In this document: positions 50,977 to 58,523 of the stretch, piece by piece
Layout: each line of letters begins with the position of its first letter
Numbering within the stretch: the stretch's first letter is position 1
NCBI RefSeq assembly: GCF_017068395.1
Contig: NZ_CP070619.1
Coordinates: 3,844,001 to 3,908,000, forward strand
DNA length: 64,000 bases
Source of the DNA: Rhodococcus pseudokoreensis
GTDB taxonomy: Bacteria; Actinomycetota; Actinomycetes; Mycobacteriales; Mycobacteriaceae
Direction: 5' to 3'
Notes under the pieces: model-generated
The model's input: the letters and a program-made list of their open reading frames with translations, nothing else
What the model was told of the DNA's origin: nothing
The model's database searches: none
Position numbers and translations under genes: made by a program

Positions 50977-51528
50977 ATGACGCAACCGGCGGCGAAAGCA
51001 CCCAGCGAGTTCCATGCCCTCCTGCAGCAGCAGATCCGCAACGAATTCACCGCATCCCAGCAGTACATCGCGGTGGCCGTCTATTTCGACTCGCACGCTC
51101 TCCCGCAACTGGCTCGCCGCTTCTATTCGCAGGCCGCCGAGGAGCGCGGCCACGCGATGATGATGATCCAGTACCTGATCGACAACAACCTCGAGGTGAA
51201 AGTCACCGGCATCGACGACGTGGTCACCGATTTCGACTCGGTGCGCGCCCCCGTCGCACTCGCGGTGGAGCGCGAACGCGCCGTCACGGAACAGATCACC
51301 AAGCTCGCCCGCACGGCCCGCGAGAGCGGCGACTACCTCGGCGAGCGGTTCATCCAGTGGTTCCTCGAGGAACAGGTCGAGGAGGTCTCGGACATGCACA
51401 CGCTCCTGACGATCGTCGAGCGTGCCGGCGACAACCTGTTCGACATCGAGGATTTCATCGCCCGCGAGATGAGCGGCAACGCGCCGGTCCGGCCGGGTGC
51501 GCCGAAGAGAGCGGGCGGCGGCGTCTGA
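50977..51528 (+). CDS. Ferritin (BfrB-like), paralogue 1
   Basis: Non-haem ferritin of 183 residues forming a 24-subunit iron-storage cage. Ferroxidase residues Glu23, Glu56 and His59 are visible, with the second-half Glu region (EEQVEEV) present, and a disordered Gly/Arg tail (RPGAPKRAGGGV). ATG 50977, 23 bp after the LCP gene. It shares the layout of the ferritin at 52957 but lacks its TTAGG-rich upstream region, so regulation should differ. Confidence 0.93.
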   Translation: MTQPAAKAPSEFHALLQQQIRNEFTASQQYIAVAVYFDSHALPQLARRFYSQAAEERGHAMMMIQYLIDNNLEVKVTGIDDVVTDFDSVRAPVALAVERERAVTEQITKLARTARESGDYLGERFIQWFLEEQVEEVSDMHTLLTIVERAGDNLFDIEDFIAREMSGNAPVRPGAPKRAGGGV

Positions 51529-52956: not shown

Positions 52957-53502
52957 ATGACTTCGACCGACGCGCACAAGACGAAATTCCACGCTCTGCT
53001 TCACGACCAGATTCGCAACGAATTCAACGCGTCACACCAGTACATCGCGACTGCCGTCTATTTCGACAACTCCGACCTGCCGCAGCTGGCCAAGCACTTC
53101 TACAAGCAGGCCGTCGAAGAGCGCAACCACGCCATGATGATCGTCCAGTACTTCCTCGACCGCGACATCTCCGTGGACCTGTCGGGTGTCGACGCGGCGA
53201 AGGGCCAGTTCGAGAACGCACGCGAGCCGATCGCACTCGCTCTGACGCAGGAGAAGACGGTCACCGAGCAGATCGTGCAGCTGGCGAGCACCGCCCGCGA
53301 GGAGGGTGACTACCTCGGCGAGCAGTTCATGCAGTGGTTCCTCAAGGAGCAGGTCGAGGAGGTCGCGAGCATGACGACGCTGCTGACCATCGCCGACCGC
53401 GCGGGCAGCAACCTGTTCGACCTCGAGGAGTTCGTCGCGCGCGAGATGAGCGGCGTCGCAGACACGTCCGGCGCACCGCACGCAGCGGGCGGTTCCATCT
53501 AG
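52957..53502 (+). CDS. bfrB: Ferritin BfrB
   Basis: Non-haem ferritin of 181 residues, identical in length to M. tuberculosis BfrB (Rv3841) and in the same syntenic place. Ferroxidase ligands Glu22, Glu55, His58, Glu99 and Glu135 all fall at the expected numbers. ATG 52957 is used over the longer frame from 52876, which crosses the promoter. The upstream TTAGG repeats predict IdeR activation when iron is replete; a terminator follows at 53517-53558. Confidence 0.96.
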   Translation: MTSTDAHKTKFHALLHDQIRNEFNASHQYIATAVYFDNSDLPQLAKHFYKQAVEERNHAMMIVQYFLDRDISVDLSGVDAAKGQFENAREPIALALTQEKTVTEQIVQLASTAREEGDYLGEQFMQWFLKEQVEEVASMTTLLTIADRAGSNLFDLEEFVAREMSGVADTSGAPHAAGGSI

Positions 53503-54518: not shown

Positions 54519-55283
54519 TCAGGAGGCCAGCCACTTCTTGGTGCGACCGGGGTGGTTGGTGGCCACCCAGCTGACCCCGAGTTCGCGGCACAGTTCGACG
54601 TCGCTGCGGTTGTCGACGGTCCAGCAGTACGTGGCCCGTCCCGCGGCGGCGGCCTTGTCGACGATGTCCGGGTGTTCGTGCAGTGTTTTCACCGAGGGAC
54701 CGACCGCGGTGGCGCCGACGGTGGTCGCGGCTCCCCCGCCGAGGTACCGGGCGGATTCGCCGAGCAGCACGGTCGGGAGCATCGGCGCCGACCGCCGGAT
54801 CCGCCACACCGCTCCGGCGGAGAACGACATCACGACGGCGCGGGAGTGGTCGGCGGACGGGGGTGCGGCGATGCCGAAGCGTTGCAGTTCGGCGAGGACT
54901 TTGCTTTCGACGAGGCCGCCGAAGCGCACGGGGTGCTTGGTTTCGATGAAGAGTTTCACCGGGCGCGCCGTCCAGTCCAGGGTGAGTGCGATCAGCGCGC
55001 TCAGCTCGAGAAGTTCGGCGGGCTCCTCCTCGGTGCCGTAGTTGAACTCCGTCAGTTCGTCGAGCGTCATCTCGCTGACGACGCCGGTGCCGGTGGACGT
55101 CCGGTCGACGGTACGGTCGTGGACGCACACGAGGTGGCCGTCCCGGGTGAGCCGCACGTCGCACTCGAGTCCGTCCGCGCCTTCTTCCAGTGCCAGTTCG
55201 TAGGCGGCGAGCGTGTGTTCCGGCATGGCCGCGGATGCGCCTCGGTGGGCCACCACCAGGGGCCCGCGCCGGTCGGGGCTCAC
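54519..55283 (-). CDS. glpQ: Glycerophosphodiester phosphodiesterase (GlpQ1 type)
   Basis: Hydrolyses glycerophosphodiesters from deacylated phospholipids, 254 residues, no signal peptide. GDPD signature at the N-terminus: VAHRGASAAMPEHT, LECDVRLTRDGHLVCVHD and later IETKHPVRFG. GTG 55283 overlaps the DUF4328 stop in GTGA (55280-55283), the same order as Rv3843c-Rv3842c. The typical ENT is EHT here, as I recall also in the mycobacterial protein. Confidence 0.94.
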   Translation of the reverse strand: MSPDRRGPLVVAHRGASAAMPEHTLAAYELALEEGADGLECDVRLTRDGHLVCVHDRTVDRTSTGTGVVSEMTLDELTEFNYGTEEEPAELLELSALIALTLDWTARPVKLFIETKHPVRFGGLVESKVLAELQRFGIAAPPSADHSRAVVMSFSAGAVWRIRRSAPMLPTVLLGESARYLGGGAATTVGATAVGPSVKTLHEHPDIVDKAAAAGRATYCWTVDNRSDVELCRELGVSWVATNHPGRTKKWLAS

Positions 55284-56284
55284 GACGCGACGGCTTCCCG
55301 GTCGGCGTCACCGGACGTCGTCTCAGTTTTCTCGGCCGACTTCCCGGCGGGCTTGTCCGCATCGGTCCGCGGCAGCGGATCGGTGGCGATCACCCAGCGG
55401 GTGACCGGTTCCTTCGCGCCCTTCAGCGTCCGGCCCTCGAGCCGCCGGAGCACCATCAGCGCGAGGAGCGCGGTCGCGGACGCGACCAGCGCCGTGAACG
55501 CGGCCAGCAGGACGCCGTCCGCCATGGCCTGCAGCCCCGGCCTGGACCGCCAGAACCAGTTGAAGACGACGAGCACGGCGCCGAAGACCCACAGACTCCA
55601 CCAGGCGCGGACCAGCAGGACCGCGCGGGGGTCGCGGCGGATCACCTCGAGCAGGAACACACCGGGCATCACCAGGTTCAGGCCCGGCACCGCGCACCCG
55701 ACGACGACGTCGGTGGGGGTGCGGGGGTCGGATTTCTTCGCCTGGGCGAACGTGCGGCGACGCATGCGTAGCAGCCAGCACACTCCGGCGATGCCCGACA
55801 GCAGCGCGAAGAGCATCCCGCCTGCCTGGCCGACGAACACGGCGAGGTCGGACACGGCGAGCACGGTGGGGTCGATCAGCCGGGTCCGGTTGCGGAGGAG
55901 GACGGCGTACCGGCCCAGTTCGGCGAGCACTCCGAATGCGTACAGGCCCGTGGTGATTGTGAGGAAGCGCGCGGCCTTGCCTGCGAGCAGTTCCGGCCAG
56001 TCGCGGCGGGTGGAGGGGGCGTCGACGTGATCGTGGAGTCCCCAGCGGGGGATCTCGGTGTAGTGCGGGGTGGGGCTCGGTGTCGACGGCTCGTCGGCGA
56101 GACCGCTGCGCTGCAGCGGAGGTCGCGCGATCCAGCGGAATCCCCGGCTTGCGGGCGGCTGGTTGTGGCCGGTCCGGACGGGGGCGAGCAGCACACCGTG
56201 GCAGCGGGGGCACCACTGCGCCGGGGCGCCGAGGACCGGCCACCGGGCCGCGCACCGCGCGCACACCTGAACGACGACGCTCAT
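55280..56284 (-). CDS. DUF4328-domain membrane protein (Rv3843c type)
   Basis: Membrane protein of 334 residues. A short N-terminal zinc-ribbon-like segment (CxxC ... CPRC) precedes about five helices of the DUF4328 domain (about 105-290) and a charged tail. ATG 56284 has GGAGGG almost abutting; GTG 56299 adds five residues and is possible. Operon with glpQ. The DnaA-box-like array starts about 120 bp upstream. Function unknown. Confidence 0.85.
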   Translation of the reverse strand: MSVVVQVCARCAARWPVLGAPAQWCPRCHGVLLAPVRTGHNQPPASRGFRWIARPPLQRSGLADEPSTPSPTPHYTEIPRWGLHDHVDAPSTRRDWPELLAGKAARFLTITTGLYAFGVLAELGRYAVLLRNRTRLIDPTVLAVSDLAVFVGQAGGMLFALLSGIAGVCWLLRMRRRTFAQAKKSDPRTPTDVVVGCAVPGLNLVMPGVFLLEVIRRDPRAVLLVRAWWSLWVFGAVLVVFNWFWRSRPGLQAMADGVLLAAFTALVASATALLALMVLRRLEGRTLKGAKEPVTRWVIATDPLPRTDADKPAGKSAEKTETTSGDADREAVAS

Positions 56285-56741
56285 GCCCTCCGCACCCACT
56301 TCACATTGCCGATTCTGTCACGGCCCGCGAATGCGGGCAGCCCACGACCGAATCGTCCTTTTTGGGGAGAATGTGTGAGCTGCAGCACCGGAAATGCCGA
56401 GTTATCCACAGTTTCCACAGGTTCATACACAGTTATGGACAGTGTGAGTAGTGCTTATACACAGGTCAGAGCGCATGTGAATCCGGCGTTGTTGACAGCT
56501 TCGGGTGAACGGTCCACAGCGGTGGATGAACTTGACATCGCAGCTCGGTGAACAACCGGTTTCGGGTGACCGACGGCTCGGCCCGGAATTACCCCTCCAG
56601 TTCGGATCGCCCGCGAAGCGACCCGAGAACTCCGGACCGGCCGTCGTCTCCCCCACCTGTGCCGGGCGAAAATGTCCCGACACTTGATCTGACGCAGCCC
56701 GGCGCGGTTTGGTTCCACCCAATCTGTAATCTCGGAAACCG
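56285..56741. other. 457-bp AT-richer intergenic region between divergent membrane genes
   Basis: No gene of normal codon bias is visible. The central part (56400-56465) is strikingly AT-rich for this genome and holds the DnaA-like 9-mers. Further ACAG-ending near-matches occur around 56495 and 56516. The rest looks like ordinary promoter DNA for the genes at 56284 and 56742. Confidence 0.6.
56402..56463 (+). promoter_or_regulatory. Array of five DnaA-box-like 9-mers
   Basis: Two perfect TTATNCACA boxes (TTATCCACA 56402-56410, TTATACACA 56455-56463) flank GTTTCCACA (56411), TCATACACA (56423) and TTATGGACA (56433). All point the same way and all are followed by G. ACAG positions are spaced 9, 12, 10 and 22 bp, close to helical repeats. 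Confidence 0.75.
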
Positions 56742-58523
56742 ATGACGGAAGACGCCGGATCGCGGTGGCACCTCGGGCCCGCCCGTGTCCTCCGGGTGGC
56801 CGCCGCCCTGATCGTGGTGCAACTTCTCGTGCGGACGTGGGTGGCCGCGAACAGCGACTTCTACTGGGACGATCTGATCCTCGCCGGGCGCGGCGGCAGC
56901 CTCCCCCTCTTCTCCGGCGACCTCCTGCTCTACGACCACGACGGTCACCTCATGCCGGGGGCGTTCCTGGTGGCGGGTATCGCGACCCGGATCGCGCCGT
57001 ATCAGTGGATCCTGCCGATGCTGACGATGGTCGCGCTGCAGGCGATGGCGTCGTACGCGGTGTTCCGGTTGCTTCGCAAAATCCTCGGGCCTCGGCCCGT
57101 GCTGCTGGTTCCGCTGGCGCTCTATCTGTTCTCTCCGCTGACCGTGCCGGCGTTCGCGTGGTGGGCGGCGGCACTCAACGCGCTGCCTCTGCAGATCGCG
57201 CTGGCGTGGGTGGCAGGCGACGCCCTCGAACTGTGCCGCACCGGACGGCGGCGGTACGCCGTGTCGGGCACGCTCGTGCTGATCGTGTCGCTGCTGTTCT
57301 TCGAGAAGTCCGTCGTCGTCCCGTTCGCCGCGTTCGCGACCGTCGCTCTGCTCGCGCACGTCGGCGAGACGGAGCGGCCGGTGCGGTCGACGCTGCGGCG
57401 GGGCGCGACCCTCTGGATCCCGTCGGCGGCGGTGCTCGCGGTGTGGGCCGCGTTCTACATCTCCACCGTCGCGTCGCAGTGGGAATGGGCGGGGACGTCG
57501 CGCGCATTGGAACTGCTCCACCACAGCACGTCGCTCGGACTGCTGCCCACGTTCGTGGGTGGGCCGTGGACGTGGGAACGGTGGATTCCGAGCCCCCCGT
57601 GGGCGTCCCCCTCGACGACGCTGGAGGTGGTCGGCTGGGTCGCCCTCGCCGCGGCGGTCGTCGCGACGGTCCGGCTGAAGCGCCGGATCGGCTGGGTGTG
57701 GGTGCTCACGGCCGCGTACTTCCTGCTGTCGGTGACGGCGATGGTCGTCACCCGGTGGGGCGCCGACACCACGTACGAGCTCGCGCAGACGCTGCGTTAC
57801 TTCACCGACACCGCGGTGATCCTTGCGATCGCCGTCGCCGTGATCGCCCGCGCACCGCGTCAACGAGCCGAACCGGTCCGGTTGCGACCCCTGGTGGCGG
57901 CCGGTGCCGTGGTCGCGTTCGTCGCGAGCAGCCTGTGGTCGACGTACACGTTCACCCGCAGCTGGGAGGAGAACCCGACCACCGACTACCTCGCGACCGC
58001 GCGTGCGTCGCTCGCCGACCGGAACGACGCGCCAATTCTCCAGCAGCCCACGTCCATCTGGGTGCTGTTGCCGGTGGCGTACCCGAACAACCTGGTGAGC
58101 CGGGTGTTCGCTCCACTCCGCGACCGGCCCGCGTTCTCCGACAGCACCCCGGACCTCCGGATGATCGACGACGCCGGTTCGGTGGTCGACGCTCAGGTGA
58201 CGTGGGTGCGCGCGATCGAGCCCGGCCCCGTCCCGGACTGCGGGCACCTGGTGGACCGACGCAGTTTCGACACGATTCCCCTCGACGGGCCGCTGACCGG
58301 CTGGGAGTGGACGGCGCAGCTCAACTACCTGGCCACGGCGGACGGTGAGATCGCCGTCGCGATGGAGGAGGGCAGCCCGGTGCGGGTGCCCGTGCGCCGC
58401 GGCCCGAATTCGGTGTTCGTGCGACTCACCGGTGGCGGTCAGGGCCTGCGCGTGAGCACCCTGACCCCGGACCTGTCCGTGTGCATCGGGGTGGGCCCGG
58501 TCGGGGTGGTCGTGCCGAAGTAG
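56742..58523 (+). CDS. Polytopic membrane protein, GT-C-like
   Basis: Integral-membrane protein of 593 residues with about ten helices and an extracytoplasmic C-terminal domain (from about 430). An acidic DFYWDDLIL segment follows the first helix, the position of the catalytic acid in GT-C glycosyltransferases, but no specific family is recognisable. ATG 56742. It has 457 bp upstream including the DnaA-box-like array. Its stop abuts that of the convergent S49 protease (58523/58524). Function uncertain; a polyprenyl-sugar transferase is one guess. Confidence 0.8.
   Translation: MTEDAGSRWHLGPARVLRVAAALIVVQLLVRTWVAANSDFYWDDLILAGRGGSLPLFSGDLLLYDHDGHLMPGAFLVAGIATRIAPYQWILPMLTMVALQAMASYAVFRLLRKILGPRPVLLVPLALYLFSPLTVPAFAWWAAALNALPLQIALAWVAGDALELCRTGRRRYAVSGTLVLIVSLLFFEKSVVVPFAAFATVALLAHVGETERPVRSTLRRGATLWIPSAAVLAVWAAFYISTVASQWEWAGTSRALELLHHSTSLGLLPTFVGGPWTWERWIPSPPWASPSTTLEVVGWVALAAAVVATVRLKRRIGWVWVLTAAYFLLSVTAMVVTRWGADTTYELAQTLRYFTDTAVILAIAVAVIARAPRQRAEPVRLRPLVAAGAVVAFVASSLWSTYTFTRSWEENPTTDYLATARASLADRNDAPILQQPTSIWVLLPVAYPNNLVSRVFAPLRDRPAFSDSTPDLRMIDDAGSVVDAQVTWVRAIEPGPVPDCGHLVDRRSFDTIPLDGPLTGWEWTAQLNYLATADGEIAVAMEEGSPVRVPVRRGPNSVFVRLTGGGQGLRVSTLTPDLSVCIGVGPVGVVVPK

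Follow-up and report, generated by a model that had tools for sequence, protein, structure and literature searches.

The window analysed here is the whole 64,000-nucleotide stretch at positions 3844001-3908000 of contig C6 in the 9.87 Mb genome of Rhodococcus pseudokoreensis, and the best relatives with a name found at protein level are likewise from Rhodococcus. Upstream of a gene encoding a DUF4328 protein, it carries an array of five 9-mers resembling the DnaA box, all on the + strand within 56402-56463. This array is very probably a DnaA site of the kind already mapped in mycobacteria in 2020, given that the syntenic mycobacterial region is among the five top DnaA regions and that the other four carry boxes in this genome. 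The boxes, together with two near-matches from a second conserved stretch (about 56487-56555), are as follows.

56402..56410, + strand: DnaA box 1, TTATCCACA; per-column conservation of 0.96-1.00 over 24 distinct rows, which were anchored on boxes 1-2
56411..56419, + strand: DnaA box 2, GTTTCCACA; two mismatches, with the TCCACA portion unchanged in 24/24 rows
56423..56431, + strand: DnaA box 3, TCATACACA; varies chiefly at position 5, which tolerates change (A in 9, C in 13, G in 1 and T in 1 of the 24 rows)
56433..56441, + strand: near-match (box 4), TTATGGACA; kept in the closest relatives only
56455..56463, + strand: DnaA box 5, TTATACACA; 53 bp from box 1, kept across much of the genus, outside the family-wide core
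56489..56497, + strand: additional near-match, TTGTTGACA, inside the second conserved stretch
56547..56555, - strand: inverted near-match, TTGTTCACC

Boxes 1 and 5 are exact copies of TTATNCACA, boxes 3 and 4 carry one mismatch each, and box 2 carries two. From box 1 to box 5, the start-to-start distances are 9, 12, 10 and 22 bp, and a G lies directly 3' of each box. These counts, the single orientation and the spacing agree with a first-pass annotation of this DNA, which had described two perfect and three near-match boxes in a helically phased array. The phasing itself stands for boxes 1, 3 and 5, which lie near whole turns of the helix. Given that box 4 is unconserved in relatives, the phasing retained is that between boxes 1 and 3 (21 bp), boxes 3 and 5 (32 bp) and boxes 1 and 5 (53 bp), i.e., near two, three and five turns. 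Box 4 itself is probably non-functional as a DnaA box.

The genes around the array are listed below.

52966..53502, + strand: ferritin gene (bfrB-like), a synteny marker
54519..55283, - strand: glycerophosphodiester phosphodiesterase gene (glpQ-like), a synteny marker
55280..56299, - strand: DUF4328 gene, transcribed away from the array; by synteny, counterpart of Mycobacterium tuberculosis Rv3843c
56742..58523, + strand: divergent gene of 593 amino acids on the other side of the array, with no Pfam family; only some relatives have it next to the array

The true start of the DUF4328 gene may be the ATG at 56284. The ferritin gene has a second ferritin-like gene near it (50984-51528), and the two are about 61% identical.

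Mycolicibacterium sp. S2-37 has, in this order, a LytR-CpsA-Psr-like gene (recognized by reading its sequence), ferritin, glpQ, the DUF4328 gene and the array (contigs L169 and, for the array sequence, L111). This agrees with Rhodococcus, except for a DUF5926 gene that lies between ferritin and glpQ in Rhodococcus and had no match in the Mycolicibacterium piece. In M. tuberculosis, we take the order to be bfrB (Rv3841), glpQ1 (Rv3842c) and then Rv3843c, and synteny points to the DUF4328 gene as the match of Rv3843c. With ferritin and glpQ in the same order, the array thus stands upstream of DUF4328, at what appears to be the place of the mycobacterial Rv3843c-RVnc0040 region, the name Rv3843c being assigned from the M. 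tuberculosis gene order. Elsewhere, Rv3843c is included among isoniazid-resistance candidates (PMC8613195), and a coordinate inside it is given in PMC9765663.

Exact TTATNCACA occurs 25 times in the whole genome, versus 34 times for its reversed control. The motif shows no genome-wide excess; its clustering is the unusual part. Dinucleotide shuffles were made of the 442-bp intergenic stretch, which is richer in adenine and thymine (AT; n=20,000), and of the whole window (n=200). When at most one mismatch is allowed, four same-strand boxes are observed in 62 bp, unconserved box 4 included, while the largest number is two in the intergenic shuffles and never above two in those of the whole window. 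When at most two mismatches are allowed, five boxes are observed, and the intergenic shuffles peaked at four, in 2/20,000. The first-pass annotation had called the cluster very unlikely by chance and had proposed a genome-wide scan; the observed density was reached in 0/20,000 shuffles, and the scan shows an exceptional cluster with no overall excess. The wider pattern TTRTNCACA has 91 sites in the genome and three same-strand pairs within 60 bp, the array's own pair among them. Other close pairs of TTATNCACA, each of two boxes within 120 bp and with different neighbours, lie at 2.944, 3.702 and 3.722 Mb. Pairs of exact TTATNCACA stand immediately upstream of two genes (L046 2195-2220 and L047 2413-2433), one with a weak Pfam AbiEi_4 match just below the cut-off and the other with no Pfam family. 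A search of a plasmid collection using the intergenic DNA gave no match.

A chance cluster, or a set of binding sites for a different protein, would agree with the lack of over-representation of the motif. It is at odds, however, with the shuffles, with conservation, and with the mapping of DnaA to the corresponding mycobacterial region, and we consider it scarcely credible; chance in particular is ruled out by the conservation of the array in relatives.

Within the genus, the DUF4328 gene is present in 27 of 28 genomes, the genome with no match being 74% complete. Of the 27 loci, 26 (all but L041) show a simple pattern of boxes 1 and 2, and 25 have a stricter three-box core upstream of the gene. 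Box 1 and the beginning of the matched gene are about 100-140 bp apart at 22 of the 27. Column conservation was computed over the 24 rows, which are mutually related and anchored on the box 1-2 pattern, so the values for boxes 1 and 2 are partly built in. Mean conservation is about 0.92 for box 3 and about 0.80 for box 5, versus 0.68 for the remaining columns, and thus the conservation on which the first-pass annotation had made its proposal depend is found. Boxes 1, 2, 3 and 5 plus the base following each average 0.92, a value that the anchoring inflates. Position 5, the N of the consensus, is the most variable in boxes 3 and 5, with further variation at position 2 of box 5. Conservation of box 4 across the rows is poor, and the second conserved stretch contains the further weak boxes listed above.

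Beyond the genus, the three-box pattern was sought in contigs of named genomes, which yielded at least 119 pieces, each of at most 8 kb and not centred on the match. Among the matches listed, 21 of 119 pieces carry the DUF4328 gene (the locus studied here is additional), and they come from Rhodococcus, Prescottella, Nocardia, Speluncibacter, Williamsia and Mycolicibacterium, the latter with two contigs of one assembly. Six of these 21 overlap the genus set and are therefore not independent of the genus counts. Another 40 of the 119 listed pieces carry dnaA or dnaN, mostly in Pseudonocardiaceae-type genera and in two Corynebacterium, and 58 carry neither these genes nor the DUF4328 gene; since the dnaA and dnaN queries were Rhodococcus sequences, distant genes could escape these counts. 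Given the 40 pieces with dnaA or dnaN, the three-box module is of a type that also occurs at the replication origin, oriC.

In an order-level search, the DUF4328 gene was matched in 84 of 249 genomes: the genome studied here, 37 others of the same family, and six and 40 genomes of families f4 and f14, respectively. Upstream DNA was examined for 37/37, 3/6 and 20/40 of these, respectively, and the strict core was found in 33/37, 0/3 and 0/20. On the opposite strand it was found in none of the 60 upstream regions, and there were no occurrences in 350,833 control bases from other loci, dnaA loci included. One genus, apparently Mycobacterium, contributes 28 of the 37 same-family genomes, and all 28 have the core. 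In families f4 and f14 the matches start further into the protein, most of them beyond the N-terminal part, and hence are possibly not true counterparts.

Only one strong dnaA match occurs in the genome (C6:4333258-4334835); it is about 434 kb away from the array, and dnaN adjoins it. The AAA family of DnaA has seven further, weaker matches (C6:5668782, C6:7425389, C6:8568618, C2:22693, C5:14169, C2:38515 and C2:189307), three of which score identically; our guess for these seven is repeated mobile-element helper genes. The first-pass annotation had placed the array away from an obvious origin; this distance agrees, with the qualification that the array is origin-proximal, at about 5% of the chromosome length from dnaA. 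In the 16 genus genomes where a single contig carries both genes, array and dnaA are 141-447 kb apart, the array position being approximated as 110 bp from the DUF4328 gene match. In all 16, the locus is on the dnaN side of dnaA and the DUF4328 gene is on the dnaA strand. On twelve chromosome-sized contigs, the distance amounts to 2.5-6.1% of the length.

An identification of the array as oriC was rejected on the distance to dnaA, which places the array outside oriC. That it is oriC or a second origin would find some favour in the three-box pattern of the dnaA- or dnaN-bearing pieces. Nonetheless, dnaA, dnaN and their own box clusters lie far off, and the lowest guanine-cytosine content of any 100 bp between 55800 and 57200 is 47%, with no strongly AT-rich stretch; neither neighbouring dnaA/dnaN nor an AT-rich unwinding element is seen at the array. 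We therefore give an origin at this place almost no credence.

DnaA was mapped in vitro in M. tuberculosis, with Rv3843c-RVnc0040 among the five top regions, and homologs of the same five regions were recovered in vivo in Mycobacterium smegmatis by chromatin immunoprecipitation followed by sequencing (PMC7738170). Box clusters are present in the genome studied here at all other four regions, including boxes upstream of dnaA and between dnaA and dnaN. A third region is represented by crgA, located in 26 of the 28 genus genomes and presumably the family of Rv0011c. Within 200 bp downstream of crgA, at no more than one mismatch, at least one box is found at 26/26 genus loci and at least two at 23/26; in control stretches, two boxes occur in 9/520. 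In the genome studied here, two same-orientation boxes 13 bp apart lie just downstream of crgA (L199 1799-1820), a place that matches the Rv0010c-Rv0011c site.

Upstream of dnaB, a row of relaxed boxes runs between an L9-like ribosomal protein gene (identified by reading) and dnaB (L203, about 943-1085), and such a row is found at 27/27 genus loci. With a fixed 440 bp, at least three relaxed boxes are found at 26/27 loci versus 1/163 control stretches, for a pattern that was loosened after viewing the sequence of this genome; at the 27th locus (L230, a shortened piece), boxes appear once the fixed offset is dropped. The box clusters at the other four regions thus support a shared five-site set. 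As a separate observation, dnaB (C6:4679630-4681900) is seemingly interrupted in frame, its C-terminal domain match being split, with about 700 bp between the two parts, inside a single frame of 765 amino acids. The interruption resembles an intein, and frame lengths range from 467 to 1092 amino acids among genus genomes.

Binding by DnaA is established for the mycobacterial region, and DnaA almost certainly binds the array in Rhodococcus as well. On the whole, we consider it fairly probable that the array is a conserved non-origin DnaA-binding site, the counterpart of the mycobacterial Rv3843c-RVnc0040 region, acting on initiation and perhaps on the flanking promoters. The first-pass annotation had proposed that the array could titrate DnaA or have a regulatory role, away from the origin; its place outside oriC, the conserved boxes and the DnaA-bound, apparently syntenic region in mycobacteria (PMC7738170) support that proposal. 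DnaA would occupy boxes 1-2-3, and possibly box 5, with boxes 1, 3 and 5 near whole helical turns. Being copied soon after initiation, the array would then be present in copies that compete with oriC for DnaA, which would delay re-initiation, and the bound complex may also tune promoters on both flanks.

The origin-proximal place and the precedents make an early-copied DnaA sink plausible. Clusters of DnaA boxes near oriC can repress untimely initiation in Bacillus subtilis and Streptomyces coelicolor (PMC4585315; for B. subtilis also PMC5295017), and in B. subtilis initiation came early when six clusters were deleted, an effect that was strong only once none of the six was left (PMC5295017). 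Elsewhere in the same review, B. subtilis clusters with significant roles are said not to have been identified (PMC5295017). That the main role of the array is that of an initiator sink or control can be put forward tentatively, at slightly less than an even chance.

Several points weigh against a replication-control site of this kind. The binding data come from mycobacteria, from which binding and a replication role in Rhodococcus would have to be extrapolated. The link to Rv3843c, and through it to the published M. tuberculosis and M. smegmatis peaks, is one of gene order. Conserved gene order alone could explain the conserved distance to oriC. Moreover, promoter regulation accounts for the steady tie to one gene no less well than a free-standing sink would. 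The strict core is missing at two genus loci (L041 and L043) and in four of the 37 same-family genomes (L257, L259, L262 and L293), although boxes are visible by eye in L262, and four same-family genomes had no DUF4328 gene match in the order-level search.

Alternatively, DnaA at the array might chiefly serve as a transcription factor whose target is the DUF4328 gene or a divergent transcript, linking a membrane-type protein to the replication cycle, and we regard this as a possibility to be taken seriously, if not a likely one. The fairly constant distance of box 1 from the DUF4328 start agrees with such a role, as does the finding that 21 of 24 named non-Corynebacterium Mycobacteriales pieces among the matches listed carry the gene; one of the remaining three holds a short DUF4328 piece (L098), and in the other two (L113 and L158) the array is at the piece edge, where the gene could not appear. 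A small RNA, MTS2975, sits between Rv3843c and Rv3844 in M. tuberculosis, on the strand opposite Rv3843c; it was verified by Northern blot and is reduced in stationary phase (PMC3207917). Our guess is that MTS2975 is RVnc0040. On the other hand, no promoter or terminator was predicted near the array by a scan with a simple sigma-70 model, which is ill-suited to this group, an Rfam search at the array locus gave no match, and the divergent neighbour varies among relatives.

In the open-licence literature, we recognized no paper describing the array in Rhodococcus, its box layout, or its spread beyond mycobacteria; passages from PMC13270200 and PMC8203912 had no bearing on it either. According to the 2020 mapping study, other species lack an obvious equivalent of the Rv0010c-Rv0011c and Rv3843c-RVnc0040 sites (PMC7738170). 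In Rhodococcus, both places carry conserved box clusters, and the question of DnaA control therefore becomes testable in laboratory strains outside mycobacteria. To our knowledge, how these bacteria prevent re-initiation is poorly understood. A broader proposal, which we offer as speculative and rather unlikely, is that a fixed set of five DnaA sites is common to Nocardia- and mycobacteria-like bacteria. Within that set, the array would be an off-origin element dedicated to control, consisting of an oriC-type module of three boxes retained family-wide at a single gene and with a single orientation. It would be this group's counterpart of datA or DARS and would couple initiation to a conserved membrane-type protein.

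In comparison with known systems, the array resembles Escherichia coli datA in being an origin-proximal DnaA-box locus and DARS1 and DARS2 in having a three-DnaA-box core (PMC4585315), the latter likeness being one of box number only. Features of their own are, for datA, the inactivation of DnaA-ATP assisted by IHF and, for the DARS elements, the reactivation of ADP-DnaA, with Fis and IHF at DARS2. The origin-proximal placement would favour a datA- or DARS-like element that alters the nucleotide state of DnaA beyond merely holding it, which we nevertheless find improbable. The B. subtilis and S. coelicolor clusters are likewise outside yet near oriC (PMC4585315, PMC5295017), but they belong to distant bacteria, and the likeness is one of box clustering and place alone. 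As boxes clustered beyond chance outside oriC, the array falls among non-origin DnaA-box clusters. With the Rv3843c-RVnc0040 region of mycobacteria it shares its place upstream of the corresponding gene, with ferritin, glpQ and DUF4328 in that order, as well as the three-box core found there in Mycolicibacterium sp. S2-37, whereas the extra box 53 bp from box 1 and the DUF5926 gene between ferritin and glpQ set Rhodococcus apart.
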